Shown one piece after another: positions 4,261 through 23,787 of a stretch of 24,836 nt of DNA. The position numbers and the translations under genes are program-made. The notes beneath the pieces are model-generated. The model ran no database searches. It saw only the letters and a program-made list of their open reading frames with translations, and was not told where the DNA came from. Origin of the DNA: a virus. The stretch lies in the IMG/VR virus record IMGVR_UViG_3300034012_000176, positions 1 to 24,836 of that record. One strand, written 5' to 3'. Every line of letters begins with the position of its first letter. Within the stretch, counting starts at the first letter, position 1.

Positions 4261-4983
4261 TCACCCCGTCGGGTATTTGCGACCCGTTACTGTTACGCCC
4301 GGCAATACCTCATCAAGCGATTGCCGTGACAAGCCGCTGCCTTGATACTGGCCATACGCTCCAGCCAATCCACCAAGCGCCTGAGTCAACGCATTTGCTT
4401 GGCCGAGATAGCCAGATGCACGAGCCGCGCCGCCTACGCCGATGGCTTGACCTGCTCCGCTCGCATATCCTTGCGCTGCCTGTCCCATCGCGCCAGTGGC
4501 GCTCGGGCCAAGAACGCCAAGTCCTTGCAAAGCATTTGTTGTATAGGCGCGCTGCTGCATCGCACGATTAAATGCGTTTTGATATTCCTGCGAACCCATT
4601 TCCTGCCCGTATCGGGTGCCAGCACGAATCGCGCCGCCACCGAGATATTGCCCACGGGCGGCTTGCATACGGCTCAATGCCTTTTCGCCCTCAGCCAAGC
4701 GGAAGGCGTAACCTGGGTCCATCTGCAATTCGTTAATAGTAGGAGCGCGTGCGTATTCGCCGCCTTCGCCGTAAAGGGATGCCAAACGGTTTAGATTTTG
4801 CAGGCCGATTTGCCGAAACGGCTCTTGGAGCTGGACCTGCCGCTCAAACATCTCGCGTTCAAGTTGTTGCTGCTGTTGAGCTGCTTGCTGTTGGGCAGCG
4901 GCTGCTTTTTTGGCACCACGAGATTGAATCGCTCCGCCGATAACGCTGCTGCCTGCCGTTACGGCAACCGCTGGATTAGGCAT
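4261..4983 (-). CDS. DNA ejection protein, gp7 / DNA transfer protein p32-like
   Basis: The 240-residue product matches P22 gp7 (229 residues) in size, order and composition. It opens with a small-residue hydrophobic stretch (VAVTAGSSVIGGAIQSR), followed by a glutamine-rich helix (residues about 28-45: AAAAQQQAAQQQQQLEREMF). The second half is glycine/alanine-rich (AMGQAAQGYASGAGQAIGVG, LGGLAGAYGQYQGSG). Small glycine-zipper-like proteins of this family are packed in the capsid and ejected first, where they are thought to help form the outer part of the DNA channel. ATG 4983 is preceded by GGAG at the correct distance, within the end of the upstream gene. Confidence 0.75.
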   Translation of the reverse strand: MPNPAVAVTAGSSVIGGAIQSRGAKKAAAAQQQAAQQQQQLEREMFERQVQLQEPFRQIGLQNLNRLASLYGEGGEYARAPTINELQMDPGYAFRLAEGEKALSRMQAARGQYLGGGAIRAGTRYGQEMGSQEYQNAFNRAMQQRAYTTNALQGLGVLGPSATGAMGQAAQGYASGAGQAIGVGGAARASGYLGQANALTQALGGLAGAYGQYQGSGLSRQSLDEVLPGVTVTGRKYPTG

Positions 4984-5425
4984 GGGAAAACTCCGCTCGA
5001 TATTCCAAGTAATTCTCGCCGTATAGTGCCATCACGGCTGGGGCTTTTGCCATAGCAGAATCATAGCCTTGGCACAAGATAAGGGTTAATAGCACGATGT
5101 CGTAATACCCGGCCCGCCACATGAACGACCGCTCGTCAGGGGCGCCCAGCCGCTCAGCACGATTGGCCGCTTCCCACTTCAGCACGGCTGTCGCCAACGC
5201 AGACTGCAATGAGGCGACATGGGCAAGATAAAAAGGATTAGCCGGGAACGTCACGAAAATGCTCCATATCGCTTTTTGGAGCGTTTCTGGGGCAATTTCG
5301 TCACGATCCACTGCGTCATCCAGCGTTTGAGTAATCCGCCATAAATCGAGTAGCCAAGCCGTCGCGTCAGGCGGCAGTTCCCACGCCTGATAGTGCGACA
5401 GCAGTGACTCTTCCTGCGGGGTCAC
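4976..5425 (-). CDS. Conserved helical phage protein of unknown function
   Basis: The 149-residue product starts at GTG 5425, overlapping the preceding stop as GTGA. It is predicted to be mostly alpha-helical, with tryptophan-rich N-terminal helices (SLLSHYQAWELPPDATAWLL) and a recognisable central segment RSFMWRAGYYDIVLLTLILC. I recall similar proteins with a WRAGYYD core just upstream of ejection proteins in related podoviruses, but no function is established to my knowledge. In P22 the same interval, after gp26 and before gp7, holds gp14, a head-assembly factor; equating the two would be positional inference only. The hydrophobic stretch near residues 105-120 is short, and I would not call it a membrane segment. 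Confidence 0.75.
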   Translation of the reverse strand: MTPQEESLLSHYQAWELPPDATAWLLDLWRITQTLDDAVDRDEIAPETLQKAIWSIFVTFPANPFYLAHVASLQSALATAVLKWEAANRAERLGAPDERSFMWRAGYYDIVLLTLILCQGYDSAMAKAPAVMALYGENYLEYRAEFSHA

Positions 5426-5757
5426 GAAATCTCCCGACCCGAAGCGCGGATGTTGATAGCCGTCGCCGCAGAGGCAATCGTGGAGATCGACCCGCCCGGA
5501 GCTAGTACATGGCCCACAATCTCAGGGAACGTGTACGTCTCTGAGGGCAGCAGGGTCTTGCTTTTGATAATTAGGTTCTGGTTGCCGGCGTTATCAAACT
5601 GCGTCACAAGGTTGACCGAAATGGTCCGAGCCGACGTGTCGTAGTTGGTCGCCGTAAACTTGTCAATAATCGCCGACACGTTGGTCGCCGTGTACTGCGA
5701 GGTTTGACTGTTTTCGGCAATTTTTGCCGGGATCAGGACTTTGACGCTAACTGCCAT
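5422..5757 (-). CDS. Small conserved beta-rich virion-associated protein
   Basis: The 111-residue product alternates short hydrophobic and polar stretches typical of a beta-sandwich (YTATNVSAIIDKFTATNYD, ISVNLVTQFDNAGNQNLII, YTFPEIVGHVLAPGGSIST). It is cysteine-free and has no signal or membrane segment. I recognise the general pattern from podovirus structural regions, where such proteins lie near fibre and ejection genes, but I know of no defined role. AAGGTGACA precedes ATG 5757. The stop is coupled to the next gene's GTG. A role as a small fibre, collar or neck decoration is plausible but unproven. Confidence 0.72.
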   Translation of the reverse strand: MAVSVKVLIPAKIAENSQTSQYTATNVSAIIDKFTATNYDTSARTISVNLVTQFDNAGNQNLIIKSKTLLPSETYTFPEIVGHVLAPGGSISTIASAATAINIRASGREIS

Positions 5758-5765
5758 GTGTCACC

Positions 5766-6410
5766 TTAGAATGTAAAGACCATGCGCACGCGGCCATTTA
5801 GCCCCGCATCGCCGTCAAAAAACTCGCCGCCATTACCACCCGCGCCTGCCGTTAGGCCGCCAACGCCAGCCGTTCCTGTCGCTCCAGCTTGCGTAAAGAG
5901 CGCCCCACCGGCACCCGTCGTATTGGTCGTGTTGCCGCCCGTCGCCACACCGCCAGCGCCCTGCTGGGCAAACTGCCCGGAATCGCCGCCGTTGCCAGGA
6001 AAGCCGGTCATGGTCGTAATCGTGAAAGGCGTTCCACTCGTGCCGCTCGACACGTTAGAGAACGTCCCAGGCTCACCGTTCGGCGAAAATCCGGTGCCCC
6101 CCTGCCCGCCTGATCCTACAATGTAATTAATTGTTTTGCCGCTATCCGGCCCAGTCAGCACCAAAATAGTCTTGCTATAGCCACCGGCACCACCGCCACC
6201 GCCGGGGAAAATCTCTGGCTCTCCTGGTGCGATCTCGCCGAGATACCCGTAGCCACCACCGCCACCCGCGCCCCAAACTTCGATGGTGACGCCTAGCGCA
6301 CCGGACGGAATAACCTGAACGCCTGACCCCGGTTCGGAATAGTCATAGACGCCCGCACCGGCCCCGCCGGTCGTGCCTATGATGAATCCCGCTAAGATCG
6401 CGCCGCTCAT
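5766..6410 (-). CDS. Glycine-rich adhesin-like tail-tip protein
   Basis: The 214-residue product is extremely rich in glycine, with clusters such as EVWGAGGGGGYGYLGE, PGGGGGAGGYSK, FPGNGGDSGQFAQQGAGGVA and TAGAGGNGGEFFDGDAG, ending in a beta strand GRVRMVFTF. Alternating glycine runs with short variable loops recall the polyglycine type II sandwich of the phage S16-type gp38 adhesin, where surface loops bind the receptor. Many phage glycine-rich proteins start with the same 'IEVWGAGGGGG' signature. I infer a receptor-binding tip or fibre partner, supported by its place immediately after a fibre gene with a TAATG overlap. The ribosome binding site is weak and distant, which suggests translational coupling to the fibre gene. 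Confidence 0.72.
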   Translation of the reverse strand: MSGAILAGFIIGTTGGAGAGVYDYSEPGSGVQVIPSGALGVTIEVWGAGGGGGYGYLGEIAPGEPEIFPGGGGGAGGYSKTILVLTGPDSGKTINYIVGSGGQGGTGFSPNGEPGTFSNVSSGTSGTPFTITTMTGFPGNGGDSGQFAQQGAGGVATGGNTTNTTGAGGALFTQAGATGTAGVGGLTAGAGGNGGEFFDGDAGLNGRVRMVFTF

Positions 6411-7210
6411 TAGGTCAAACCCGCTCCGCTAATTAGCCACGAGGTCGCACCGATTTTGATACAGGTCGCCACACCGTTCTGCGCCAACGTGCGGGTGCCA
6501 GTCGTCGTGCTGTTCACGAGCGTCAGGGTATCCGACGTAATGGCAATCGACAGCGGCGAACTGTTCAGGTTGATAGCAATAAACACCGTGCCGGTTGCGA
6601 ACGGGACCGACGCGTTAGCCGGAATGGTCAGCGTCAAGCTGGTGCCATTCATCGTAATCGTCTTGCCCGCATCCGACGCAATCAGCGTGTAGTTGCCGGT
6701 TTTGCTGTTTAGCGGCGCTTCTCGATAGCCGACCGGATAGTTCGTATTGCTCGGCGCGTTGTCAGGGATCAACGCCGTGCCGGTAAAGGTCGGGCTGGCA
6801 ATCGGCGCATAGGTCGAAGCAGCGGTCGCCGTGGAGAGGGCATCGGTGATGCCATAGCCTGCCAGCGTCGTCGGGGTGCCCGTGACGTTCGACCATGCAA
6901 TACCCGAAATCGTCAGGTCATTGATGCCTGAGATGTCGTCATACGCACCAATTTGGACGTTCGCCGCAGTCGTTAAAACGAGTTTGTAACTGACCGATTG
7001 CGTTAACCAAATCTCATTAGGAACACGCCCTTCGGCATCCAGAATGATCGGATTGGTGTTTGGCGTCGAACCGCTAATGCTGGTGTACGTCGCCTCTGGC
7101 GTCGTCGTTCCGGCGGTATATGTAAAGATTTTGCCACCGGCCAACGGGTTGCCCGCAGCGTTAAAAAACTGCGCTCCAGCACCGGCCAGCGGGGAAAGAA
7201 ATACGCTCAT
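6410..7210 (-). CDS. Tail fibre with P22-tailspike-like head-binding N-terminus
   Basis: The 266-residue product has at least three parts. Residues about 1-97 (FFNAAGNPLAGGKIFTYTAG, then ILDAEGRVPNEIWL, then YKLVLT, QIGAYDDISGI) match the pattern of the P22 tailspike head-binding domain, including the NPLAGGKI strand and the NPIILDxxGR strand. Residues about 105-150 hold a fibre linker (TTLAGYGITDAL, ASPTFTGT) common in phage fibres. The remainder is a beta-rich C-terminal domain (GKTITMNGTSLTLTIPANAS). It lacks the long beta-helix of a full tailspike, so it is probably a short fibre or an adaptor carrying the glycine-rich protein encoded next. AGGTGTACGT precedes ATG 7210, which overlaps the previous stop (ATGA). 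Confidence 0.78.
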   Translation of the reverse strand: MSVFLSPLAGAGAQFFNAAGNPLAGGKIFTYTAGTTTPEATYTSISGSTPNTNPIILDAEGRVPNEIWLTQSVSYKLVLTTAANVQIGAYDDISGINDLTISGIAWSNVTGTPTTLAGYGITDALSTATAASTYAPIASPTFTGTALIPDNAPSNTNYPVGYREAPLNSKTGNYTLIASDAGKTITMNGTSLTLTIPANASVPFATGTVFIAINLNSSPLSIAITSDTLTLVNSTTTGTRTLAQNGVATCIKIGATSWLISGAGLT

Positions 7211-7914
7211 ACGTACACCTGCATAACGGTCAATATGATGGATGGAATTGCTGGCACGGGAGCAGCCGCCGCAAACGTCTGAAGCTGCACGTCAAGGCTG
7301 TCCACCGAAAAATATAACTGAAAGTAGTCGCCGTTAGATAACGGCAAGAAAAAGTTTGCAGCCGAGAAGATTTCGGCGTTGTTGCCCTGAATCTGAATCA
7401 ACGACCCAGAATTGGCGACCGCCGTGCCGTTGATAGCGGGCCAAATGTAAAACTTGCCGCTACCGCCTGAAGTCTTGTCCACCTGAATGGAAAACTGCAC
7501 GTTGTAGATGGCAGGCCGCGCAACTTTGATTTTGCTGTTATCCGCCGGATCACGGTAGACGCCATACGCCGTGTCGGCGTTGTTGTAAGTAATGGCATAA
7601 CCCGTATTGATAACGGTCGCCGCTTGCGTCTGCGTTGAAAAAAACGACCCAAAATTTACCACATTCGGTTCGGGATACCGGGGCAGCAGTTTAAGCGCCT
7701 GTATCTCAGACTCTAGTACCGGCACCATATCTTCAACAGTGGCTGCCAGCGCCGGGGTCAACTCAAGATCAGCGGTCGTAATCTGCGTCGTACCGCTTCC
7801 GGTCAACACAAAGACGTTATTCAAATACCGGAACCACTCACGGGAAATCAGGCCCGTCCGCTCGTCAATGAACGGCACTCGAGGAGCAGGGATATTGGTG
7901 GTATTGCTCGTCAC
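7207..7914 (-). CDS. Candidate tail needle or short fibre with C-terminal knob
   Basis: The 235-residue product directly follows the gp10-like gene, the place of the tail needle gp26 in P22 (233 residues there). The N-terminus has a conserved-looking anchor (PRVPFIDERTGLISREWFRY) and a short helix (ALAATVEDMVPVLESEIQAL, about residues 55-74). From about residue 88 it becomes a beta-rich domain (NTGYAITYNNADTAYGVYRD, KFYIWPAINGTAVANSG, YFQLYFSVDSLDVQLQ) that looks like a C1q/TNF-type jelly roll. Some P22-like needles carry such a trimeric knob, but the long coiled coil of gp26 is missing, so needle function is inference and a short fibre is equally possible. It starts at GTG 7914 with a GTGA overlap. 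Confidence 0.7.
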   Translation of the reverse strand: MTSNTTNIPAPRVPFIDERTGLISREWFRYLNNVFVLTGSGTTQITTADLELTPALAATVEDMVPVLESEIQALKLLPRYPEPNVVNFGSFFSTQTQAATVINTGYAITYNNADTAYGVYRDPADNSKIKVARPAIYNVQFSIQVDKTSGGSGKFYIWPAINGTAVANSGSLIQIQGNNAEIFSAANFFLPLSNGDYFQLYFSVDSLDVQLQTFAAAAPVPAIPSIILTVMQVYV

Positions 7915-9446
7915 GCGGTCGTCGGGCTGATATCCAGCTCCGCTCCCATGATTGCGACAATCACCGGATCAGTTCCCGATGCTTCATACACGCGGTCACG
8001 CGATTTCATCGTCGCGCCGAGACGCCGCCAGATCACGCGGGTATAGGTCGCGCCAATCGGCCCCATGTTGCGCCAATACTCATCGCTCCAGGTATGGCCG
8101 CCATCGTCCGACCAGCGCAGCATGACTTGCGGCTCAGTGCCGACATCGTTACCGACAAACGCAAATAGCGGCCCCGGCACAGAGTTTGGCGAGATCGCCT
8201 GCTCAGTCCAAAGTTCTAGCGCGTTGTTCGTAGACAATACGTCGAACAAGCCTTCCGACAAGCCCACGCCCGTCTGGCAGTCCAACTGCAACTGGTGATG
8301 AATGGTGCGGTTTAGGTCATTCTGCCCGGTCGGCAACGCACGCCAGCGACGAAGCCATTTCTGCTCTTCGTTCGCGTCGGTGTATACGTCGAGCTTAAAC
8401 TGGTAAATGTTGCCGTTCTCAAAGTCGCCGACGGTCGGGTCGTTGTTAAACGCCGCGTGGCAGTTGGAACGGTGACGACGGAACTCGCCGTTAAAGAGCG
8501 CCGCACGCTCGTGCCACGATCCGGTCGCTGCGTCATACACCCAAGTGGTGTTGGCAGTCGGAAAGATCAGCACGTAAAAAGCATGGCCGTCTTGCTGGTA
8601 CGTATACGCAATCGCATCCGTCATGTCGGTGTATTGCTGAATCGCAAACTCCACCGCATGGGTCGATACGCGCACGCCCTGATAACCCTGCGCTCGATAC
8701 ACGATGCCCTGACCACGGGCGTCTGAGCCAAGCCAAAACACGCTGTTGTCCAACTTAGCGACTGAGTACGGCGCAAGGCAGCCGATTTCGTTGTACGCAC
8801 CTTGGATGCGCTCAAGCGGGAAGTCGGGGTTGCCGGAGTTGTACCAGACCTCCACGGAGTTCGTGCCAAACAGCCATGCCTCTCGGTGGTCGATCATAAC
8901 GGCCACTAGGCCGTCTGGTGAGCCTTCAGCGGAGGCAAAGTCAAGCGGGTCAATCGACAGGCCGTCCAGCAACTGCGTCACCCAGATGCGCTGGCTGTTG
9001 GGTTCGTTGAAGACGAAATAGCCGTCAAGATACCCAACCGTCACCGCGCCCGGGAAGTCCGGGTCAGTAATTTGCTGGAACACGTTAGTCGTAAAGTTAT
9101 AGATAAACCCATTCGGGTTACAGGCAACAAACAATTGGAAACCGTTATCGGCCATCGATACCGGACCAGTGCCGGTGATGTCGCCAAGTTTCGTAATGGT
9201 CAGGTCAGGCGTGGCTTTATAAAGTTCCGATCCCGACGCGATGTACAGATTGTTGCTGTTGTTCCAAAGGCCACGGATCGGGCCAGTGCCGATGGTGGCA
9301 ATCAACTCCATGCCTGGGCAACGCTGTAGGTACGCCGGTTCCTTACCGCCTTCGGGAATAACCTCGGGGTAAAGGTTAACCATGCGGGCATCTGCCGCAT
9401 TGGGGCTACGTACAACGTATGAAGACCCAAGAATCGGCGTCTTCAT
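7911..9446 (-). CDS. Tail hub / packaged-DNA stabilisation protein, P22 gp10-like
   Basis: The 511-residue product resembles the P22 gp10 family (472 residues in P22; Phage_stabilise), which closes the portal channel and forms the tail hub below gp4. Recognisable features are the N-terminal segment YVVRSPNAADARMVNLYPEV with a downstream PAYLQRCPGMEL, the repeated beta-blade-like stretches (GYFVFNEPNSQRIWVTQL, DHREAWLFGTNSVEVWYNSG) and the C-terminal strand-rich part containing MLRWSDDGGHTWS and RRLGATMKSRDRVYE. Repeated W/Y-containing strands are consistent with a beta-propeller. The order gp4-like, short fibre, gp10-like, knob protein parallels P22. No clear Shine-Dalgarno precedes ATG 9446. 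Confidence 0.88.
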   Translation of the reverse strand: MKTPILGSSYVVRSPNAADARMVNLYPEVIPEGGKEPAYLQRCPGMELIATIGTGPIRGLWNNSNNLYIASGSELYKATPDLTITKLGDITGTGPVSMADNGFQLFVACNPNGFIYNFTTNVFQQITDPDFPGAVTVGYLDGYFVFNEPNSQRIWVTQLLDGLSIDPLDFASAEGSPDGLVAVMIDHREAWLFGTNSVEVWYNSGNPDFPLERIQGAYNEIGCLAPYSVAKLDNSVFWLGSDARGQGIVYRAQGYQGVRVSTHAVEFAIQQYTDMTDAIAYTYQQDGHAFYVLIFPTANTTWVYDAATGSWHERAALFNGEFRRHRSNCHAAFNNDPTVGDFENGNIYQFKLDVYTDANEEQKWLRRWRALPTGQNDLNRTIHHQLQLDCQTGVGLSEGLFDVLSTNNALELWTEQAISPNSVPGPLFAFVGNDVGTEPQVMLRWSDDGGHTWSDEYWRNMGPIGATYTRVIWRRLGATMKSRDRVYEASGTDPVIVAIMGAELDISPTTA

Positions 9447-13184: not shown

Positions 13185-14390
13185 TTAGCCCCAGATGCGG
13201 CAGGCCATCTGCGGACGGATCACCGAGTAGCCATACAGCACGTCGATACGGCACGGCATACGGTCGTTGTTGATGTCGTACTGACGAACAACGCGCATGG
13301 AGATACCGTTGTGGACCTGACGCGAAGCCATGTCAACGCCCTGCGGGAGCAGGAGGTCAGCCGTGGCAAACGTGATCGCGTCCTTGTGGTACACGAGGTT
13401 CTGCGGGTACTGCGTGGACACACCGCCGAGGAACGTCACCGCTGCCGCAGCCTGCGGGAACGAGTTGACGGTCGCCAGAGCGTGAGCTGAGGTGTAAATC
13501 GCCGGGCTGATCTTGACGTTCGTGTACAAGCTGCTGGCCGCAGTGATGTCTTCCGTCACCACAAACTGCTGCAACGAGCCGGTTGACTCGCGGGTCTGCG
13601 GGTTGACCGCAAACACGTTCGCAATCGTGAACACGTCGCCCTTCTTGAGGGTCTGACCGTCAACACCCACGAGGGTGATCTGAGTCGCACCCTGCGTGGA
13701 CACCGTGGCGCTGACCGTCGTGGTCGCAGCGCGGCTGCCGGTCGTGAACTGCTTGATCGACTGGGACATATTGATTTCCTCGTATCCGAGGACGCCCATG
13801 CCCATCATGCCGTTCTTGAACTGGCGGCTAACGGTATCGGTCGGGTTGAACAAGCCCTTCATGCCCTCGACGAGCGCAGCGTTGGCAGCCGGGTTAACGG
13901 TTGCATAGCGCGGCGACATGACGGCAGCGGCTTCGTTCAGCTTCTGCTGCGCCTGCAACAGGACCAACGAGGTGCCCGGAGTCGTTCCCGGCGTACCCAC
14001 CGACTGGTAGATGCTGTTGAAGGAGTTGGCAACGTCAGCGTCAATGCTGGAAGCGAGCTGGCTGATACGCGGCTTCAGCACGCGCTCGGCAAAGTCGTCC
14101 AACTGGAGTGCCATTTCGGCGCTGGTGAAGTTGACGCCAATGTGCTTCTGCGAGGCGACGGTGAGCGTGGTGAACTGCTCGTTGTCGTCCTGAACCTGAA
14201 GCGCAGCGCCGTCGGTCACAAGAGCGCGATCCGGCAGACGGATACGGAGGGTCGAACCAATCTTGGCACCTTCGACAGCGAAGCTGTCGTCGTACTGACG
14301 GTTCACGTTACGGGTGATTACAAGGTTGTTCTCAAGGATTTCGAGAGCCTTCCTCGTAATCATATCAATGGTAAGAAGTGTATTAGCCAC
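13185..14390 (-). CDS. Major coat protein, P22 coat-like (HK97 fold)
   Basis: The 401-residue product has the order and motifs of the P22 coat protein family (430 residues in P22). The N-terminal helix begins LLTIDMITRKALEILENNLV, followed by NRQYDDSFAVEGAKIGSTLR and the FTTLTVASQKHIGVNFTSAE strand region. The C-terminus (VVRQYDINNDRMPCRIDVLY, then GYSVIRPQMACRIWG) is a very typical ending for this family. It assembles around the scaffold and portal as the icosahedral shell. The start is GTG 14390 with GGAG seven bases upstream; a GTG start is notable for the most abundant virion protein. The scaffold stop lies only 17 bases before it. Confidence 0.93.
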   Translation of the reverse strand: MANTLLTIDMITRKALEILENNLVITRNVNRQYDDSFAVEGAKIGSTLRIRLPDRALVTDGAALQVQDDNEQFTTLTVASQKHIGVNFTSAEMALQLDDFAERVLKPRISQLASSIDADVANSFNSIYQSVGTPGTTPGTSLVLLQAQQKLNEAAAVMSPRYATVNPAANAALVEGMKGLFNPTDTVSRQFKNGMMGMGVLGYEEINMSQSIKQFTTGSRAATTTVSATVSTQGATQITLVGVDGQTLKKGDVFTIANVFAVNPQTRESTGSLQQFVVTEDITAASSLYTNVKISPAIYTSAHALATVNSFPQAAAAVTFLGGVSTQYPQNLVYHKDAITFATADLLLPQGVDMASRQVHNGISMRVVRQYDINNDRMPCRIDVLYGYSVIRPQMACRIWG

Positions 14391-14407: not shown

Positions 14408-15187
14408 TTAGCGGTTACGCATTGCCTCCCACTTCTTAATCTGTCTAAGCCGCTCTGCTTCAATCCACTCTGACGTACTCATCTCTTTGACAGAGCGAGG
14501 GTCAGTCGTGTCTCGAACCGGAGCGCCTACGGATTTGGCCGTGACAGGCTTAATCGGCGGGGGCGCACTAGTTGTCTTTTTAACCGGCGGATTGTCGGCC
14601 AATTTGACCTCAATCTTGCCGATCTCTTTGGCTTGTAGGTACGGCGATAAGCGGGAAATACGCTCAGCTTCTTTAGGGTTGGAACCAAGGTAATAAGCCA
14701 GGTCCGGCCCAAGATCAGATGCCTGAATCGTCTGCGCCATCACGCCCGTAATCGGTAGGTTCGGGTTGTAAGCGACTTGCTCGAAGTCGTCATACCGTTC
14801 CCGAGCCGACTCTTCGCGGTCGTGATATTGGCTCAGAATCTCGATTTGCTGGCGTTCCGCTTCCCGGCGGGCAAGGAGTTCTTCGGCCTTACGCTCAGCC
14901 AAGGCTTCGGCGTAGGCTTCAGGGTCTGCATCCCTACTCGGCAGTTCTGCGGGCGCGTCAGCTCTTGGAGCTTCTTTCGCCTTTAGCGACTGTTCTCTTT
15001 CCCACTTGCGACGTTCCCGTGCAAGCCTCTTGCCTACCATCGCGTCCAACTCTTCTTGAGTGAACGTTTTAGCAGGCTTTTCCTCCGGCGTTTCTGCCTC
15101 TTGGGCAACAACTTCGGGTTCCGGGGCTGCCGTAGCCGCCGGTTCCGGCGCGGGTACTTGTTCCGCTAACAGTTCATTTTCAGACAT
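14408..15187 (-). CDS. Scaffolding protein
   Basis: The 259-residue product is highly charged and largely helical or disordered. The N-terminus is acidic and proline/alanine-rich (VPAPEPAATAAPEPEVVAQE). Next come FTQEELDAMVGKRLARERRK, a motif frequent in podovirus and siphovirus scaffold proteins, and a long charged helix (YAEALAERKAEELLARREAE). The C-terminus is basic and helical (TSEWIEAERLRQIKKWEAMR), as in P22 scaffold, where a basic helix-turn-helix binds coat. It lies directly before the coat gene, the canonical place. P22 scaffold is 303 residues. AAGGAATCACA precedes ATG 15187, within a potential small hairpin. Confidence 0.88.
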   Translation of the reverse strand: MSENELLAEQVPAPEPAATAAPEPEVVAQEAETPEEKPAKTFTQEELDAMVGKRLARERRKWEREQSLKAKEAPRADAPAELPSRDADPEAYAEALAERKAEELLARREAERQQIEILSQYHDREESARERYDDFEQVAYNPNLPITGVMAQTIQASDLGPDLAYYLGSNPKEAERISRLSPYLQAKEIGKIEVKLADNPPVKKTTSAPPPIKPVTAKSVGAPVRDTTDPRSVKEMSTSEWIEAERLRQIKKWEAMRNR

Positions 15188-15234: not shown

Positions 15235-15540
15235 TTAACTGTAGTAACTGATGTTCAGTGTCGCACTTGCCGACTGCTGAATAAACCTTATTTTATTTAG
15301 GTCACCGTCATATTGCAAAGGAACGCCAATTGCAAGAGGCATACCAACCGAAGCCGTAGGATTAGTGCCATCATCGCGCCATCTAACCGGGGCACCTTCG
15401 GCCACAATAAGGGCAAAAACGGGCTTGCCGTTCATGCCTTCTGGAGTTCTGGCTGGGACAGTCAAAGCGGCTGCTCCGCTCAAACTCGTAATTTGCTGAT
15501 AGCCGAAACAGGTGGTTACGGCTTTAAGGTTAATTGCCAT
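15235..15540 (-). CDS. Small beta-rich protein of unknown function
   Basis: From ATG 15540 the product has 101 residues, starting MAINLKAVTTCFGYQQITSL. A TTG six bases upstream is a less likely start. The body reads as a beta-barrel or sandwich (GKPVFALIVAEGAPVRWRDD, GTNPTASVGMPLAIGVPLQY, LNKIRFIQQSASATLNISYY). The 'VRWRDDGT.PTA..GMPL..G...Y.GDL..IRFIQ' pattern is one I recall from small phage virion proteins of unknown role. The gene lies between the repeat protein and the scaffold. A capsid or fibre accessory function is a guess from context. Confidence 0.72.
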   Translation of the reverse strand: MAINLKAVTTCFGYQQITSLSGAAALTVPARTPEGMNGKPVFALIVAEGAPVRWRDDGTNPTASVGMPLAIGVPLQYDGDLNKIRFIQQSASATLNISYYS

Positions 15541-15542
15541 AA

Positions 15543-17852
15543 TCAAAATCTCTTGGGTTGGGTAAATGACCTAAGACTGTAAGTATACTCATACGCTCCA
15601 ACAACGGGCGAGAGACCAAAATCCCATCCGTCATTGTTTCCTGCATCAATGTTCTGTTGGTTTACATAGGCATTCCATGCCGCGCCGCCAGTTGCGTTGC
15701 TATCTTGAATGGTCAAATACGACACATTTACCGTGCCGGATGCCTGAGAAATGGTCGCCTGATTCCCGGCAGACGTTGACTGCAAAAACTTTTGATTAGT
15801 GCCGCTTGTGGCAAACGCGCCAACCGTAGATGTAACCCCGTTTTTAAGCTGCAACGTGCCATTTGTTAACGTAATGGCACGCGCCGATCCCTGAGTCAAC
15901 GCATCTTGAAATGCAAAAGTTCCGCCAATCCCGTTAAACGTCAACGGAAAATCTAATGTTATTCCATTAGTGGTAATTTGCTGAGTGCCAGAAGTTGCCG
16001 CAAAGGTCGTTGCGTTTGCTCCTGCCGTCAGCGTCGATCCAGCAGCAATGATTAAATTGCCGTAGATTGTTCGAGCAGCATTACCAACTGTTCCCGTAAA
16101 TCCTGTGAAATTGACGTTTTTGTAAACGGCATTCGTGTCGGTAAGCGTATACGTTCCGACGGTGTAATTGAAATTAAGCGAAGTGGATTCCGGCCACGCG
16201 CCCGTTGTAACAGTTGTCGCCGTTGCTGAGTTGTTAGAAACATTTACGGTTGGCGTTCCGGTGTAAGTCAATCCGGTCAACGTGCCAGTATCCCAAACTG
16301 TCCCGCTGCCGGTGACAGTGATGTTTCCGGTGCCGAACCTAATTACTCGCGTATTGCTATTGCTCGAAGCAAACAGCCCAGAACTTAGCGTCCAATTCCC
16401 GCTATTTCCCGTTAAATCAAGCGTTCCGGCAGTCAACGTAAACGTTCTGCCCGCGGCCATTGTCAGATTGTCTTGCAACTCAAAAACTGCCCCCGGATTG
16501 TTTTGCGTAATAGGCTGATTAATTGTTTTGCCAGCGCTCGTAATAGTTTGCGTTCCAGATGTTGCAGCAAACGTATACGGATTGTTGTTCGTCCCCATCG
16601 TAATGCCGGACGAAAGCGTAAGATTCCCGTAAAACGTGCAACCTATTGCGGTTAATGTGCCATTAAACCCAGTAAGATCAAGTGACTTAATTGCATGGCT
16701 GCTTGATGTTGTTGGGCTAAATGTATCCGTTCCGGCGGTAACATTGTAAATAAACGAATTCGCTTCTGTTTGAACGCCCGCTTGAACAGTTCGCGTTCCG
16801 ATCGCGCCAGAATAAGTTAAATTTACAATTGGGGTGCCGGTAATTGTTAAATTCGTCAGCGTGTTAGTTTGCCAAATTATATTGTTATTTCCGGTAATAG
16901 TGATGTTTCCGGTTCCAAACGCAATCGTTCTAACTCCGCTATTACTAGAACTAAAAAGGCCGCACGATAGTGTATTTGTTTTTAAATCTAACGTTCCCGC
17001 ATTAAGAGTAAACGTCCTAGTCGTACCCATCGTAAGTGAATCTTGAAGTTCAAGCCCGCCTCCGATGCCATTTTTGCTGACTGGAAAATCAAACGTTTTT
17101 CCGTTGCTTGTTAGTTCTTTAGTGCCAGACGTTGCTGCAAAAATTAAATTTGACGGCAAGGTTGCGCCAAAAGACATTCCAGAACTAATAAACAAATCAC
17201 CAAAAACATTAAATGCTGCGGTAGACGACACGCCAAAAGTGCCTGAAAATCCATTAAAATTAATCGAACCGTAATTTGAACCTGATCCAGAGGAAAATGA
17301 AAGTACATCTGTTCCGGCTGTAACATTTACGTTTGGAGCTTGACTTTCTGGAAACGTGTTATTTATAACTGATCTTGTTCCAACCGAACCGGAATATGTC
17401 AAATCAAAAGTTGGCGTTCCGGTAAACGACATATTGGTTATTCCCGTAATAGAAACAACGCTATTGTTGTTGCCGGTCGCAACAATTTTACCCACCCCAA
17501 ATGCGATCGTTCTGGAACCTGAGCCTGCTGATGCTATTCTGCCTACTGTCAGAGTGTTATCGTTTAAAGTAATTGTGCCTGCGGTAAACTGAAGCGTTCC
17601 AGCAGCAACCGCTAACGTTGGACTGCCTGACAGCGACAAATTAATATCCGCTTTGTTTATCGTCGTATTTGCCGCAACAGCAGATGCTGCAACGGTAACG
17701 GTGGCTGCCGTTCCTGAATTAACGTCAAAGTTAACGCTATCCGCATTATTAGGCGGCCCAGCACCAGCCGCTCCGCCAGAACTTGCGGACCAATTAGCAG
17801 TAGACGTGTCATCCCACGTCCCGCTTCCTCCGACCCAATAGTAAACTGCCAT
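15543..17852 (-). CDS. Large beta-repeat virion protein (candidate fibre, adhesin or head decoration)
   Basis: The 769-residue product is nearly free of charged clusters and is rich in Thr, Ser, Gly and Asn. It begins with a module common at the front of phage and bacterial surface proteins (AVYYWVGGSGTWDDTSTANW, then NNADSVNFDVNSG). Residues about 86-658 are three imperfect 190-residue repeats followed by a partial fourth; landmarks FAATSGT at 238, 428 and 617 and TLxAGTLDL-like strands at 280, 470 and 659 mark the period. The C-terminus has YLTIQDSNATGGAAWNAYV and NNDGWDFG, often found at the end of such proteins. Short strands with regular G/N turns suggest a beta-helix or filamentous stalk. 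No catalytic motif is visible. No Shine-Dalgarno precedes ATG 17852, and base composition is AT-richer than the coat region. Confidence 0.8.
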   Translation of the reverse strand: MAVYYWVGGSGTWDDTSTANWSASSGGAAGAGPPNNADSVNFDVNSGTAATVTVAASAVAANTTINKADINLSLSGSPTLAVAAGTLQFTAGTITLNDNTLTVGRIASAGSGSRTIAFGVGKIVATGNNNSVVSITGITNMSFTGTPTFDLTYSGSVGTRSVINNTFPESQAPNVNVTAGTDVLSFSSGSGSNYGSINFNGFSGTFGVSSTAAFNVFGDLFISSGMSFGATLPSNLIFAATSGTKELTSNGKTFDFPVSKNGIGGGLELQDSLTMGTTRTFTLNAGTLDLKTNTLSCGLFSSSNSGVRTIAFGTGNITITGNNNIIWQTNTLTNLTITGTPIVNLTYSGAIGTRTVQAGVQTEANSFIYNVTAGTDTFSPTTSSSHAIKSLDLTGFNGTLTAIGCTFYGNLTLSSGITMGTNNNPYTFAATSGTQTITSAGKTINQPITQNNPGAVFELQDNLTMAAGRTFTLTAGTLDLTGNSGNWTLSSGLFASSNSNTRVIRFGTGNITVTGSGTVWDTGTLTGLTYTGTPTVNVSNNSATATTVTTGAWPESTSLNFNYTVGTYTLTDTNAVYKNVNFTGFTGTVGNAARTIYGNLIIAAGSTLTAGANATTFAATSGTQQITTNGITLDFPLTFNGIGGTFAFQDALTQGSARAITLTNGTLQLKNGVTSTVGAFATSGTNQKFLQSTSAGNQATISQASGTVNVSYLTIQDSNATGGAAWNAYVNQQNIDAGNNDGWDFGLSPVVGAYEYTYSLRSFTQPKRF
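15879..17597 (-). repeat. Three tandem ~190-codon imperfect repeats in the beta-repeat gene
   Basis: Within the 769-codon gene, three consecutive units run roughly 17597-17016, 17015-16446 and 16445-15879, with a partial fourth after them. Each contains, in order, an AGTLxL strand, an F/IxSSNS-RxIxFGxGxIxxTG segment, a TGTPxxxL/V segment with an xGTR turn in the first two, a TAGTD-like strand, a GFxGT turn, and finally FAATSGTxxITxxG with ELQDxLT. Conservation is clear in protein but imperfect in DNA, so the duplications are old. Confidence 0.75.
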
Positions 17853-17867
17853 GTTATTTAATTAGTT

Positions 17868-20015
17868 TTAAGCAAAAGTAATAGCAGGATTGGCGGTAAA
17901 CGAAACTGAAAGCCCGCCAACAATGCAATTAGCAAATACAACCGGATGCGTTACGCTTGTCGTAATAACAACTTGCAAAGTACCTCCGACGCCACCTACT
18001 GCGCTTGATACAACCGTCGTTCCCACAGATGCATCGCTTGACATTACAACTGCGGCTTGTGTGCCATATTTGCCGACAACATAGTTAAGGTAAACGCCAG
18101 AAAATCCGGTCATTTGAATATCGGCAATACAATCTCCAGATGTATTATCACCAGAAAATGTCAGCGTAATAGTTGTAAAAGTACCGCTTTCGCCCTTGCC
18201 AAAAAACTGTTGCGCACATCGAGTAAAAGGTTGCCCGCCAACATATGACTCAACTGTCCATGTACCGGGCGTGCCAGCGGTCGTGCATACCCACCCGCTT
18301 GGATTCCCAATCAAAGTGTTGGAATTTACAACCCGATCCCCGACTGCCCACGTTCCGGTCGTTGGCGCAGCCGTTCCATACGTAATTTTTTTATTAGATG
18401 CGCTAAGAAGCGTCGAAAATGCCGTAGTTCCTAATGTGTAAAAATTTGATGGCCAAGGCGCCGTACTTGGCGATATATAAGTTGGTTGAACGAAATAATC
18501 ATTTGCTTTAACAGCATTTGTGTAATCGACCGTAAATAATTTTGATGCAGTTGAGAGATTAGTGTCCCACCTGTTATTTTCCGATTGTGCAACTTGTTGA
18601 ACAAGATGGATTAAGTCATACGTAACGCCGTTATGAAGTGCCGCATTCGTAAATGTGTAATTGTTCGTAAATTTTGTTTGGGGCGATTGGAGATAAATTC
18701 CAAATCCTGTATGCCCAGTCGTCCCCATGAAATAAAACTTATTGTTGTCAACCGTTATGTCTTGGCCTGCAACGTTGCCAACAAGAACGCCGTTGAAAAA
18801 ACCCAAATTTGATTGAGTTGAATAAAATGTATTTCCTGAAATGTTAACGGCAGGCGCTTCTGCATTGCCGTAGTTTGGCTGTATTGAAGCTGTATCAAAG
18901 TAACAATTAATTACGTTAGTATTTTTTGTTGCGGGCGTGATAAATGGATACGGATAAGTCGAAACGTTTGTTACACGGACAGTGCATCCATCAAGCAACA
19001 CCGGGTATCTGACCGAATCAACGTTTGTTGCAACGTATTGAATGCCTTTGTTGTTAAGGAACAAACAGCCATAAAACTGAATGTCTCCTGTGTAATCAGA
19101 AACTGCAAGGCTCCCAGGAGACGCTGGCGTATAGTTTGGTTCAATATCAACGCCTGCACTTGGGGCAAAATTACCAAACGTTCCGGCTTCTCCAGTGTAC
19201 GAAAATGTACACCGATTAAACGTGCAATAACGGGCTTGAATGATTGAACACCCTTGGCGGGCGTTGTTGGTAAACGTGCAATTATTTGCTTGGAAATAGG
19301 AAGTGATCGGTTTTGGTGTGCCGGAGGTTGCCGCATCAATATACATTCCGTCACAACAATAGTACGAAACATTAACGTTGTTTAACGTAAATTGATTATT
19401 TCCGTATATCGTAATACCGTGCGAAGAATTTTCTGCGGTAAGACCAGGTTCTTTAGTGATGGTTTGTGCGCCTCCGTTCAAAAACAAATCGTTTATAACG
19501 ACGTTTGAACAAGAGGAAAAAATCATTTGAATGCTTCGTTGATATGAGAACCAAAAACCAGCAGCCGTATAGTCTTTGGTCATGACCCAGCCGCCCTGCA
19601 ACTGGATCGTGCTGCCATTGCCTTCAATAACAAGGCCGTCGCAATTGGAGAACGTAAAGTCCGTTATTGTGTTTTGGCTTGGGCCGCCAAAGATAACGTG
19701 CTGATTGATGAAATACGTGCCATACGGAAAGTAAAGCGTTCCGCCGCCTTGCGCATTAATTGCAGCAATAGCTGCTTGTATTGCAACGTAGTCATCGGTG
19801 ACGCCATCACCAACCGCGCCAAAGTCTTTAACGCTAACAATGTCGCGTAGTTTGTTTTGAATGGTTCGAGTGGTCGCGCCAGTTCCACCAGCAATAAATC
19901 CAAATTGATTGATTGCTGCTTTTTTTGTTACGCCATTTTGCAAAGCCGGAACAACATCCGACGGAGAAACCGGCGTATCAGCGGCTGGGAGTTCCGAAAT
20001 CTTAATAATAGCCAC
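17868..20015 (-). CDS. Tailspike with pectate-lyase-type beta-helix
   Basis: The 715-residue product starts at GTG 20015 with AAGG nine bases upstream. Residues 1-37 form an anchor-like segment (IKISELPAADTPVSPSDVVP, then TKKAAINQF), followed by the linker TRTIQNKLRDIVSVKDFGAV. Residues about 62-110 (GDGVTDDYVAIQAAIAAINA, then GGGTLYFPYGTYFI) are the start of a Pectate_lyase_3 right-handed beta-helix. The helix continues through about residue 460 with N/C-rich turns (NVVINDLFLNG, TLNNVNVSYYCCDGMYID). The C-terminal part has GTWAVGDRVVNS and GWVCTTAGTPGTW, a module frequent in tailspikes, then a beta-rich end. Such trimers bind and often cleave surface polysaccharide; the substrate cannot be read from sequence. 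It lies unusually in the head-gene region. Confidence 0.88.
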   Translation of the reverse strand: MAIIKISELPAADTPVSPSDVVPALQNGVTKKAAINQFGFIAGGTGATTRTIQNKLRDIVSVKDFGAVGDGVTDDYVAIQAAIAAINAQGGGTLYFPYGTYFINQHVIFGGPSQNTITDFTFSNCDGLVIEGNGSTIQLQGGWVMTKDYTAAGFWFSYQRSIQMIFSSCSNVVINDLFLNGGAQTITKEPGLTAENSSHGITIYGNNQFTLNNVNVSYYCCDGMYIDAATSGTPKPITSYFQANNCTFTNNARQGCSIIQARYCTFNRCTFSYTGEAGTFGNFAPSAGVDIEPNYTPASPGSLAVSDYTGDIQFYGCLFLNNKGIQYVATNVDSVRYPVLLDGCTVRVTNVSTYPYPFITPATKNTNVINCYFDTASIQPNYGNAEAPAVNISGNTFYSTQSNLGFFNGVLVGNVAGQDITVDNNKFYFMGTTGHTGFGIYLQSPQTKFTNNYTFTNAALHNGVTYDLIHLVQQVAQSENNRWDTNLSTASKLFTVDYTNAVKANDYFVQPTYISPSTAPWPSNFYTLGTTAFSTLLSASNKKITYGTAAPTTGTWAVGDRVVNSNTLIGNPSGWVCTTAGTPGTWTVESYVGGQPFTRCAQQFFGKGESGTFTTITLTFSGDNTSGDCIADIQMTGFSGVYLNYVVGKYGTQAAVVMSSDASVGTTVVSSAVGGVGGTLQVVITTSVTHPVVFANCIVGGLSVSFTANPAITFA

Positions 20016-20030
20016 TAGTTTTTACCTTCG

Positions 20031-20393
20031 TTAAGCCAAAAACTTCAGCTTATAGAGCGTGGAAAGATACAACGCGACGATTTCGTCAATGATGTTCTGT
20101 ATCGCAGAATCATTTTCTTCGCAAATCTTGTAACGGTTGGACTCTATTTCATCGAGGGAGTCCTGCAAGAATTCAATAATATTGCCGTTCTTTTTTGCCG
20201 TTTGGAGCGAAATCGGGCCAATTAGCCCATGACGGCCCTGATAAGCCTCAGCGAACGAGTCGGCAAGGTCTACCACCTTGTCGTAAAACGACCCAAGCGC
20301 CTTGTGTTTGGCAAAGCTGCGCGTGTTGAGATGCACTGAATGGGCGACATCCCGCGCTAGAAACAAATGACCTACGAAATCAGCCGCTTTCAT
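20031..20393 (-). CDS. DUF5856-like helical protein coupled to the portal
   Basis: The 120-residue product is all helical: FVGHLFLARDVAHSVHLNTR, FAKHKALGSFYDKVVDLADS, FAEAYQGRHGLIGPIS, then IQNIIDEIVALYLSTLYKLK. The pattern of an ARDxAHxxHLxTxSFxxHxALGxFYD core with a C-terminal IIDEIVxLYxxTLYKL matches a phage family I recall as DUF5856, whose fold resembles a small ferritin or Dps-like helical bundle. Histidines and acidic residues are well placed for metal binding, but that is inference. The gene overlaps the portal stop as ATGA and has GGAG upstream, implying coexpression with the portal. The role in the phage is unknown. Confidence 0.8.
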   Translation of the reverse strand: MKAADFVGHLFLARDVAHSVHLNTRSFAKHKALGSFYDKVVDLADSFAEAYQGRHGLIGPISLQTAKKNGNIIEFLQDSLDEIESNRYKICEENDSAIQNIIDEIVALYLSTLYKLKFLA

Positions 20394-22594
20394 TGCATCT
20401 CTCCGCCTTGCATGGGCATTTCGGGGGCCGCCATCGGCATCTCCTCACCGACCATCGGTGTTCCACGTGGAACCGCCTCGGATATTAAATCACCTGTTGA
20501 CATCATGCCAGCAAGTGTGCCAGCAACAATATCTTGAATTTGCTGTTCGTTAAGACCTGACTCCACCGCTTTAATGCGATCCGTCTCAGCCTGATACGCC
20601 TTGATCTGCGCCTCAAACTCCTTGACCTCCACCTCGCGGGCTTCCATCGAACGCTGGACGTTCTGGAGCATTCCGAACATCTGCTCCATCTCAGCCGACA
20701 TCGCCTGCATCTGAGCTTGCGCCGCCTGTAGGGCTGGGCTTTCGTCAGACGCCTCAAGGAGTTTCGGATCAATCGTCTTGGCAAGACGCTCAGCAATTTC
20801 CTGCGCACCCGGCCAGTCCATGTTCTTGACGAACAAGTCGCCTGCCACGGCCCAAAGCTGCGGATTCGCTTGCAGGATTTCGCCCATCGCCGCCATCGCT
20901 TCCTGCCGCTTGGTGTAGTACGACGGGCCGGTCGTGACCGCTACGTCATACTTGCCGACCGACGGGTTGTAAATCTTGTCGATGACAATACCCGCCTGAT
21001 CGACGATCTTGCGCACCGGCTCCGGCTGCATCGGGTCGATACGAACCGTAGAAGTCTCACCGTCGATGCCGATGATGCGTGCAATTCGCTGCGTATCGTA
21101 GATTTTAGGTATCAAGTCCACGAGTTGACGCGTGACATAGCGAATGGCGCGAGCCAGGTTATCGACGTAATGGTATGTGCCTGTGTCGCCTTGCCGTTCA
21201 CGCGCCAAGATTGCTCGTCCCGAACGCTCGTTAGACGTAGCGCCGAGGCTTGAATCATATTGACCCGTTGTGGACTTGATATCGTCAGAAGCGCCCATTT
21301 TCGCCTGAATTAGCCCGGTCTGGGCCAACGGCGGCGGGGCGCGTTGCGGAAGCGGCAGGACTGCACCTTGCCCGTCGGTCACGTCAGGGTTAACTTCCAA
21401 ATACGGCCAGTTGGTCGTATTGGCAGTCTTCCACTGCGTCTCATAGCCTTCAAACTGTCCGCCGTATCCGATAAACGGCGCTTTGGGCGCAAGCGCCAAC
21501 ATTTCGGCTTCCTGCGATACCCAGTAGTTGTACATACGCTGGGCGTCCTTGGCGTTACGCACCAAGCCCGACACGTACATCCGGCCTTCAACTTCAAACT
21601 CATTGCCGATCACGCGAACGACAGGAATCCACTTACCCGGCCATTCTTGCTCTTCAAGGATTTCGTAGCCGTTGGTTTTAATCCATTTGACGCGCTGAAC
21701 GTCTACTTCGCGGGTGCGAATCGGCTGCAAACCCAACATTTCGAGCTGTTTGGCTTCCGGCGACCCTTCAAACGCGGTTTGGTTCCCCGGATACAGATTT
21801 AATGTCGCTTTGGAGTGATCTTTGTAGAAATACTCCGCGATACGCACCGTATCTCGATTGATCCAGTTGTTGAGCGCCGCGTCACCGACGCCACGCTGCA
21901 ACACGGACGAAATCGGTTCTGCATCCGGGTAAAGACGCTCATAGGTGTCTTTGGGTATTTCTTCGGTGATGAAACACCACTCAGCGTCCGACCCGCAGGG
22001 GTCTTGGATCGCCGGGTCCATGTACACACAAAACGAGTTGCGGATACGTCCGATTCGGATGTCTTGGTCGAAGCTATTTTCATCGCAGTATTCGGTGAGA
22101 ATACGCAGATAGCCTTCGCCGTAAGTAACTTGGTTTTCGCAGGCAGTGTCATAGGCTACGTCGGCGTCTGAGATGTACTCAATGTGCCGGACGATGCCGT
22201 CGAATATCTCAGCGACTTCGATGTCGGCTTGGTCATCGACCGGGATGACCTTGCCCGCCGGGCGATTCTGGCGCTGATCGTTCGTGACTTGGCGCACGTG
22301 CTGCGGGAGTTTGTTAATCGTCAAGCATGGGCGTGCGTTAACGGTCTGACCCTGCACGGAACCACGGGTGGCTAGCACATCTTGCGGCCACTGCCACTGG
22401 TTATCGGGCGATCCGGCCATAAAGCGCAGATCGTCTAGTTCGTCCTCGCGGCTATCAGAATACGCCGATAGCGCCTGCTCGAGACGCTGGCGTGCGAGGG
22501 CTAAAACACTCTCAGGGTCACGATTCGCTTTCTTGCGAGTCGTTGGGGACGTGGAGACGTACCCCGCCCCGATAATGCCGTTCGGGTCTTTCAT
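20390..22594 (-). CDS. Portal protein, P22-type
   Basis: The 734-residue product matches P22 portal (725 residues) in length and pattern. The N-terminal helical part (ALARQRLEQALSAYSDSRED, then LRFMAGSPDNQW) leads to the conserved RPCLTINKLPQHVRQVTNDQ and RQNRPAGKVIPVDDQADIEV segments. Next come VTYGEGYLRILTEYCDENSF and SFCVYMDPAIQDPCGSDAEW. The centre includes STTGQYDSSLGATSNERSGR, the stem-region signature of this family, and the C-terminus is a long coiled coil (MEAREVEVKEFEAQIKAYQA) ending in a Met/Pro-rich tail. Twelve copies form the DNA channel at one vertex and bind terminase, then gp4. An AAGAG site precedes ATG 22594, and the upstream 47-residue gene stops one base earlier. Confidence 0.93.
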   Translation of the reverse strand: MKDPNGIIGAGYVSTSPTTRKKANRDPESVLALARQRLEQALSAYSDSREDELDDLRFMAGSPDNQWQWPQDVLATRGSVQGQTVNARPCLTINKLPQHVRQVTNDQRQNRPAGKVIPVDDQADIEVAEIFDGIVRHIEYISDADVAYDTACENQVTYGEGYLRILTEYCDENSFDQDIRIGRIRNSFCVYMDPAIQDPCGSDAEWCFITEEIPKDTYERLYPDAEPISSVLQRGVGDAALNNWINRDTVRIAEYFYKDHSKATLNLYPGNQTAFEGSPEAKQLEMLGLQPIRTREVDVQRVKWIKTNGYEILEEQEWPGKWIPVVRVIGNEFEVEGRMYVSGLVRNAKDAQRMYNYWVSQEAEMLALAPKAPFIGYGGQFEGYETQWKTANTTNWPYLEVNPDVTDGQGAVLPLPQRAPPPLAQTGLIQAKMGASDDIKSTTGQYDSSLGATSNERSGRAILARERQGDTGTYHYVDNLARAIRYVTRQLVDLIPKIYDTQRIARIIGIDGETSTVRIDPMQPEPVRKIVDQAGIVIDKIYNPSVGKYDVAVTTGPSYYTKRQEAMAAMGEILQANPQLWAVAGDLFVKNMDWPGAQEIAERLAKTIDPKLLEASDESPALQAAQAQMQAMSAEMEQMFGMLQNVQRSMEAREVEVKEFEAQIKAYQAETDRIKAVESGLNEQQIQDIVAGTLAGMMSTGDLISEAVPRGTPMVGEEMPMAAPEMPMQGGEMQ

Positions 22595-23096: not shown

Positions 23097-23564
23097 TTAT
23101 GCAGCCCTCTTCATAAAACGCCCTGTTTCGCGGTCGTGATCCAACGGATTTACGACTACAGGGTGCAGTTTACCGTGTTCAATGTAGTGCATAACTCGCA
23201 AGTTTTCTACGCGATTGTCTGAATGCACGCCATTAATGTGGTCAACTTGTTCGCCAGGCTCTAGTTCCTTAATAAACGCGTCGGCAACCAAGCGATGCAC
23301 CAAAAATGCTTTGCTATGTACGTCTCTCGTACTGCCGTTGCGAAGGTGAATCTCCGCATATGGCAGGGTTCGATTCGTCTTAGCCTTGATATGCAACTTC
23401 ATAATTCGTTCGGGCATCCAGGTTTGTCCACCACGTTTGGTTCGTCTAAATCGAGCTAACGATTTAACCCTTCCCAACGTGCTGACTTGATATCGCCCTT
23501 CGTACCCCCGGATGTCAGCCCAAACTTCAATTACATTTCCATCGACGCATTGATGCTCTAGCAC
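23097..23564 (-). CDS. HNH homing-type endonuclease with NUMOD4 domain
   Basis: From GTG 23564 the product has 155 residues. Near the N-terminus is a NUMOD4 DNA-binding module (IEVWADIRGYEGRYQVSTLG, then RVKSLARF). The catalytic HNH_3 region follows (FLVHRLVADAFI, then GEQVDHINGVHSDNRVENLR), with the first His in VHRL and the core in VDHINGxxxDNRVENL. Such free-standing enzymes cut intronless alleles and spread with the gene. GAGAGGAAGCC just before the GTG gives a ribosome binding site; a longer reading would use an upstream ATG deep inside the neighbouring gene. The first 38 bases overlap the end of the upstream 86-residue gene. The following gene begins at the very next base after its stop. 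Confidence 0.85.
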   Translation of the reverse strand: MLEHQCVDGNVIEVWADIRGYEGRYQVSTLGRVKSLARFRRTKRGGQTWMPERIMKLHIKAKTNRTLPYAEIHLRNGSTRDVHSKAFLVHRLVADAFIKELEPGEQVDHINGVHSDNRVENLRVMHYIEHGKLHPVVVNPLDHDRETGRFMKRAA

Positions 23565-23787
23565 GGCTTCCTCTCGGACTGCTTTTTGCGATAGGAGCCA
23601 TCCTAGCACAGAAAGACCTCTTTCTGGCAGCATCTTTTTTCGACTTAGGATTGGGTGCAGGAGCCTTGAGCTTACTACCCGTCGCACGGTTGTACTTGGC
23701 GCGGCCCTTGGCCGTCAAACCCGCCCCCTTGGAAACCGGCAGTTTCTCGCCTCGACCAACTGCCAAACTGACCGATTTTTTAGCCAT
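23527..23787 (-). CDS. Small basic DUF6321-like phage protein (86 residues)
   Basis: From ATG 23787 the product begins MAKKSVSLAVGRGEKLPVSK, then GAGLTAKGRAKYNRATGSKL, then KAPAPNPKSKKDAARKRSFC and ends in RRWKCN. The GLTxKGRAxYNRxTGSxLKxPxP block followed by KKDAARxxSFCARM is one I associate with the DUF6321-type phage family, of unknown function. The C-terminal ASMRRWKC looks like the family's natural end, so the HNH gene that overlaps its last 38 bases appears not to have truncated it. The start overlaps the terminase stop as TAATG; an upstream TTG is less likely. The protein is very basic. Confidence 0.83.
   Translation of the reverse strand: MAKKSVSLAVGRGEKLPVSKGAGLTAKGRAKYNRATGSKLKAPAPNPKSKKDAARKRSFCARMAPIAKSSPRGSRARASMRRWKCN

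Follow-up and report, generated by a model that had tools for sequence, protein, structure and literature searches.

The repeat protein and its gene neighbourhood

The minus-strand gene at 15543..17852 raises the question of what a protein built from large tandem repeats does among the structural genes of an uncultured phage, and how such a protein would be held in place. The window, which is the whole stretch of DNA analysed, is a virus record of 24,836 bases whose minus strand bears a P22-like structural module. The gene for the repeat protein (REP) starts at ATG 17852, stops at 15543 and encodes 769 aa, and its coordinates, strand and frame are as given in the preliminary description. Upstream of it, at 17868..20015 (-), lies the gene for a tailspike with a pectate-lyase-like beta-helix (PF12708 and tail-spike PHROGs). 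The gene for a 101-aa partner protein, p101, occupies 15235..15540 (-) and begins 2 nt past the REP stop. It is followed by a probable scaffolding gene (14408..15187, -), which has weak sub-cut-off Pfam matches and adjoins the P22-like coat protein gene (13185..14390, -; PF11651, PHROG 283). The portal gene (20390-22594, -) and the head-closure protein gene (7911-9446, -) are recognized by Pfam/PHROGs, and the large terminase gene is only weakly matched. Beside the latter, at 23097-23687 (-), is an HNH homing-type endonuclease with matches to NUMOD4 (E 3.1e-13) and HNH_3 (E 1.1e-9). A conserved gene at 20031-20393 (-), between the portal and tailspike genes, matches DUF5856 (E 6.7e-22).

The order portal, 20031-like, tailspike-like, REP, p101, scaffold, and coat recurs in P22-type relatives (e.g., L008, L010, L018, and L028), whereas the tailspike-like gene is placed after p101 instead in L056, L058, and L061. 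REP is followed by p101 in 24 of the 84 loci L002-L085, near-duplicates counted, and some loci with REP relatives have none of the portal, 20031-like, tailspike-like, p101, scaffold, or coat genes. The L039 contig carries 20031-like genes on both strands and appears inverted or chimeric. When codons at conserved residues are compared with L003/L013, the share that differs is 0.53-0.62 in the parts of REP and in p101, and 0.21-0.45 in terL, portal, 20031, scaffold, coat, 12750, and 12074, but 0.60 in 10922. This pattern is no more than suggestive of an exchange of REP and p101 together as a single cassette.

The leader of the gene had been taken as a hint of low expression or of coupling to the tailspike gene. 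A motif scan finds no Shine-Dalgarno motif before ATG 17852, and the tailspike gene is indeed 15 nt away, yet the missing motif is uninformative. By the same test, no such motif precedes 11 of the 28 listed window genes (three of uncertain start) or 43 of 79 REP relatives, the latter being 32 of 64 once identical leaders are removed. Special expression of REP is rejected on these counts, and nothing is concluded about its expression because the same test finds no site for so many window genes and relatives.

Architecture of the repeats

The protein opens with a front module (aa 1-84, 17601..17852, -; beginning MAVYYWVGGSGTW), which is common to relatives of many lineages and to all lineages examined. 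Three tandem units follow: unit 1 (aa 85-277, 17022..17600, -), unit 2 (aa 278-467, 16452..17021, -), and unit 3 (aa 468-657, 15882..16451, -), which has 82% identity with the final L003 unit. The end module (aa 658-759, 15576..15881, -) begins near aa 659 with a partial resemblance to a fourth unit. The last 10 aa, LRSFTQPKRF (15546..15575, -), form a C-terminal tag that is recognized by comparison with relatives.

The repeats are real. Ungapped self-comparison scores reach 278 (offset 194), 213 (offset 189), 169 (offset 379), and 166 (offset 190), while the best diagonal over 40 shuffles has a mean of 53 and a maximum of 74. The early claim of three diverged repeats of ~190 aa holds, as does that of common front and end modules, both of which are found in relatives. 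The word "giant" fits a long repeat protein of 769 aa only in relative terms, since related ORFs reach 2,506 aa. REP is rich in T, G, S, N, and A. Its units have diverged in DNA, with the better-supported local matches at 70-90% identity over 21-69 nt. Between REP and L003, there are 229 synonymous and 159 non-synonymous codon differences in 569 aligned codons.

No family in Pfam, PHROGs, or NCBIfam matches the window REP, and a PDB sequence search gives no match. A set of 40 members gives neither a PHROG nor an NCBIfam family at E<=0.01, and its Pfam matches are sporadic, at 1 to 3 members each.

Relatives and change in unit number

REP relatives come from protein scans of viral contigs, 5 at first and then the best 80 of 159 (IMG/VR). 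A 190-residue profile built from the three units of the window REP itself matches 156 full units, with a mean of 185 aa, in 84 related ORFs. The number of full units, in counts that take in near-duplicates and some ORFs cut at contig ends, is 0 in one ORF, 1 in 41, 2 in 26, 3 in 7, 4 in 5, 5 in 3, and 7 in one. Repeat number among relatives, which was named as a check on modularity, ranges accordingly from 0 to 7. The simplest architectures form a length ladder with one unit at 377-390 aa (L041, L044, L057, and L061), two at 565-572 aa (L003, L008, L009, L010, L012, and L014), and three at 769 aa (the window), and the relatives on it have 108-113 aa beyond the last unit. Many others are off the ladder and have longer ends, inter-unit gaps, or additional front modules. 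L003, the closest syntenic relative, is 72% identical to the window REP and has one unit fewer. L032, L033, and L047 are very long, at 1,232 to 2,506 aa, and each contains two or three front modules inside the chain, through duplication of larger blocks.

A few relatives lie further afield. Limnohabitans phage DC31 (L007, PQ492658.1) gives the sole REP match among named phage records, a weak one of 36.7% over query 375-513; at its locus 4840-8958, the match falls in a long ORF starting MANRYWVGGTASWD, and no annotated gene lies beneath it. An Arthrobacter sp. EpRS71 protein (L089:8001-10538) has the front module, and is probably part of a prophage because its flanking genes resemble tape measure and tail genes by eye. 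A Staskawiczbacteria MAG protein (L086:7770-11792) carries a homologous unit at 179.5 bits, and its N-terminus resembles a signal peptide by eye.

Of the 43 inner branches in a tree built from 46 units, 7 are well supported. Window unit 3 belongs to a group of 11 rows (SH-aLRT 99) that also contains all four L047 units and the last unit each of L003, L008, L009, L010, L011, and L016, while window units 1 and 2 group neither together nor with unit 3. L031 and L043 have two units in common at shifted positions. Their DNA matches are 17-392/14-389 (84.6%) and 301-1253/871-1826 (88.8%), so that the relative shift is 573 nt, or one unit, and the homology overlaps at the joint. L031 also matches L048 at 97.7% identity over its final 852 nt. 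This pattern reads as one unit gained or lost together with a chimeric end. Modular change of length is supported by such comparisons of relatives. For the proposal that length changes by recombination between repeats, the evidence of unit gain or loss and of chimeras is drawn from relatives. Ready recombination between the window's own present units looks unlikely because the longest exact direct repeat within the gene is only 15 nt.

Predicted fold

The AF2 model of REP, made with 40 sequences, is a rod of nearly all strands (pLDDT 87.6, pTM 0.76). Its weak spots are blocks at pLDDT 52-75 between aa 71 and 160, in unit 1 and the junction, and the stretch aa 751-769, which is mostly below 50. 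The rod is well predicted for units 2 and 3, and best for units 2 and 3 with the end. A globular non-repeating fold, which had been named as evidence against a modular stalk, is not what the model gives; a repeating rod is predicted, with unit 1 poorly modelled.

The best structural match in BFVD is the uncharacterised protein A0A6J5KUB8 of an uncultured Caudovirales (Foldseek E 5.8e-31, TM 0.72, 35% identity over 789 columns), which counts as a relative and explains nothing about function. Against the PDB, Foldseek finds no chain at E<=0.001. In a second look with VIA-align, for which a Z under about 13 may mean merely a common arrangement when repeats are compared, REP is matched mostly over aa 390-750 by phi29 gp12 (3suc; Z 12.9, rmsd 5.0, 313 aligned, REP aa 391-747), PL6 alginate lyase (Z 11.0, rmsd 4.3, 272 aligned), HK620 tailspike (4xkv; Z 10.3, rmsd 5.1, 298 aligned), and RsaA (Z 10.2, rmsd 6.0, 273 aligned). 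All four are beta-helix or solenoid proteins. The phi29 gp12 pre-neck appendage is a beta-helix rod, as REP is predicted to be, but identity is 8%, the two have no PHROG in common, and gp12 is not known to have long tandem units. The HK620 tailspike is likewise a beta-helix, but it is 5% identical to REP, and the window has a tailspike gene of its own. Self-associating autotransporter passengers of bacteria (4kh3 and Ag43, 7koh) include the Foldseek rank 1 match (E 0.012) and reach Z 11.1 and 8.2. Agreement with them is only local because the rmsd is 13.5 and 15.4, and the context of REP is phage.

The C-terminal tag and its tie to p101

The preliminary description treated the end of the protein as a common module, and overlooked both the tag and its association with the gene that follows. 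Among non-duplicate REP relatives, the tag is present in 20 of 20 with p101 next and in 0 of 48 whose fetched stretch lacks p101, with nine duplicates and five relatives without a visible end dropped and two having too little downstream sequence. With duplicates kept, 23 of 24 REPs whose p101 lies no more than 400 nt away are tagged, as against 0 of the 53 that lack it. The odd one out is L082, removed as a duplicate from the first count, in which p101 lies 129 nt downstream of an untagged REP and a separate tiny ORF in between carries the tag.

The tie is also seen from the side of p101. All 80 loci found by p101 similarity alone, near-duplicates counted, bear the tag, as called by pattern in 70, by eye in frame in 9 where the ORF is short or cut, and as the window's tail in L002. 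The loose C-terminal pattern LRSFT[QE]xRxF is found in 56 of 57 proteins upstream of p101, and the 57th (L168) has one additional residue. At the DNA level, the pattern RSFTQPRRF-stop gives 76 unique matches, each of them followed by p101 and comprising 68 REP, 2 front-only, and 6 cut at the contig end. The pattern SFTERRxF-stop gives at least 108 unique matches; among the 108 listed, 106 are followed by p101 and 2 are too short to tell, and the bodies are 11 REP, 5 front-only, and 92 others.

Unrelated bodies bear the tag too. Among 162 complete tag ORFs, 61 are tiny, with 39-94 aa and FFxGxFF stretches, and cluster apart from REP. Clustering with the tag removed yields four clusters, of which one contains 71 REP, 7 front-only, and 21 other ORFs and another the 61 tiny ones. 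Because this clustering merged low-complexity bodies, only two clearly separate large body types are claimed. Tiny FFxGxFF ORFs that end in the tag ahead of p101 occur in L261, L286, L291, L300, and others.

Outside this set, the six translated genes each of MW202483 (80.0%) and DSL-LC05 (72.4%), the nearest records by coat, 12 in all and the long ones read at their ends, contain no tag. A limited literature search for tag sequence motifs found none, and nothing on such a tag or on variation in unit number. The link of tag and p101 is a case of putative docking, and linked neighbours also stay together by descent.

The p101 protein

The 32 aligned relatives of window p101 are 67-84% identical to it. 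For window p101, Pfam gives nothing up to E 1 and PHROGs give nothing at E<=0.01, and the 33 members give only stray PHROG matches, the best at E 0.032. Named phage records hold no match for p101, P0003, or the tiny tag protein. The AF2 model of p101 (pLDDT 88.8) has seven strands; a PDB sequence search gives no match, and Foldseek finds none in the PDB at E<=0.001. PM2 spike P1 (2vve) is at the top in the second look (Z 8.2, rmsd 4.0, 87 aligned), and cupin-like folds come next, from Z 7.6 downwards; among small beta proteins, chance often produces scores of this order.

The position of the gene recalls Tfa and gp38 downstream of tail fibres, in that a small gene directly follows a fibre-like gene with a conserved C-terminus. 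In fibre/Tfa and gp37/gp38 pairs, the small downstream product acts on the fibre C-terminus. REP could accordingly be an ordinary tail fibre anchored by its N-terminal front module, with p101 as an assembly factor or a tip protein on the C-terminus. Both the tag on the C-terminus of the upstream protein, with p101 directly downstream, and the front module common to all lineages examined agree with such a fibre. However, the tag-bearing proteins of 39-94 aa ahead of p101 are too small for fibres and make the tag a property of non-fibre ORFs as well, p101 is conserved, unlike a variable tip, and it matches no Tfa or gp38 family in Pfam or PHROGs. An ordinary fibre is rather unlikely here.

Two constraints on the tag

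The tag could also be no docking peptide but a by-product of translational coupling, in which the p101 ribosome-binding site, together with recombination at a conserved joint, shapes the last codons of the upstream gene. The stop-start distance is -1 to 2 nt in the 57 unique cases. In 55 tails, the arginine codon at -3 is [AC]GG in 52 of 52 and that at -2 is AGA in 48 of 49, which together spell GGAG just before p101, and the glutamine at -5 is CAA in 39 of 39. The conservation of the tag is therefore partly nucleotide-level. In the window, the weak counterpart of this Shine-Dalgarno site is AAGAGA (15549..15554, -), which the motif scan does not score as a site. The first half of the tag behaves differently. 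At its L, R, S, F, and T (-10 to -6), residue entropy is 1.10, 0.44, 0.36, 0, and 0 bits, against a synonymous entropy of 2.07, 2.22, 1.92, 0.95, and 1.83 bits, and the serine includes one AGT codon against TCN elsewhere. Because residues are kept while codons vary, LRSFT is under selection as a peptide, and coupling as the whole cause of the tag is distinctly unlikely. By this codon evidence, protein-level and ribosome-binding-site constraints overlap in the tag.

A secreted or cell-surface protein of infection outside the virion, as the signal-peptide-like N-terminus of the unit-bearing Staskawiczbacteria protein might suggest, is most improbable for REP, which starts MAVYYW without a signal-peptide-like leader (by eye) and is encoded inside the structural block, as in relatives.

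Other tails and other partners

REPs without p101 have C-termini that differ from the tag. Ten ORFs, duplicates counted, have tails of the RRKNKR type, and a common ~111-aa protein follows 9 of them, perhaps as a second pair of tail and partner. The REPs concerned are those of L009, L014, L019, L021, L041, L044, L045, L084, and L085. A common 245-aa protein is found downstream in 19 loci, duplicates counted, of which 12 have WTxIN-type tails, 6 are unclassified, and 1 has another tail. Lineage-specific docking would give such a pattern, and plain shared descent of neighbours would give it too.

Proposed model and its meaning

Taken together, we see about an even chance that REP is a phage appendage in which stacked ~190-residue units form one right-handed beta-helix rod and the tag docks via p101. 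We infer the virion role from the seat of the gene in the structural block, and C-terminal docking from sequence comparison; a role as stalk or adhesin, as first suggested, is plausible. The length of the rod would change by gain or loss of whole units. The tag LRSFTxxRxF would serve as a plug by which p101, or a complex containing it, may hold different bodies, and translation of p101 would begin right where the body gene ends. REP would then be anchored by its C-terminus, the polarity opposite to that of most phage fibres.

A broader reading, tentative and somewhat short of an even chance, is that uncultured P22-like phages use a plug and socket. The ten-residue tag, which overlaps the p101 ribosome-binding site, would let whole surface bodies swap on a constant socket, and other lineages would combine the same solenoid with other tails and partners. 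The exchangeable bodies may include beta-solenoids of one or more units, glycine-rich proteins, and the tiny FFxGxFF proteins. A beta-helix appendage on a phage is known; unit-wise growth and the p101-linked tag set REP apart as a variant.

The REP family has 159 occurrences in one IMG/VR scan, yet it has no entry among the searched Pfam, PHROGs, and NCBIfam models. It is a case of whole-unit length variation in nature. If the tag docks, REP is also a case of a C-terminal anchor, and a ten-residue handle would account for unrelated bodies in one genomic slot.
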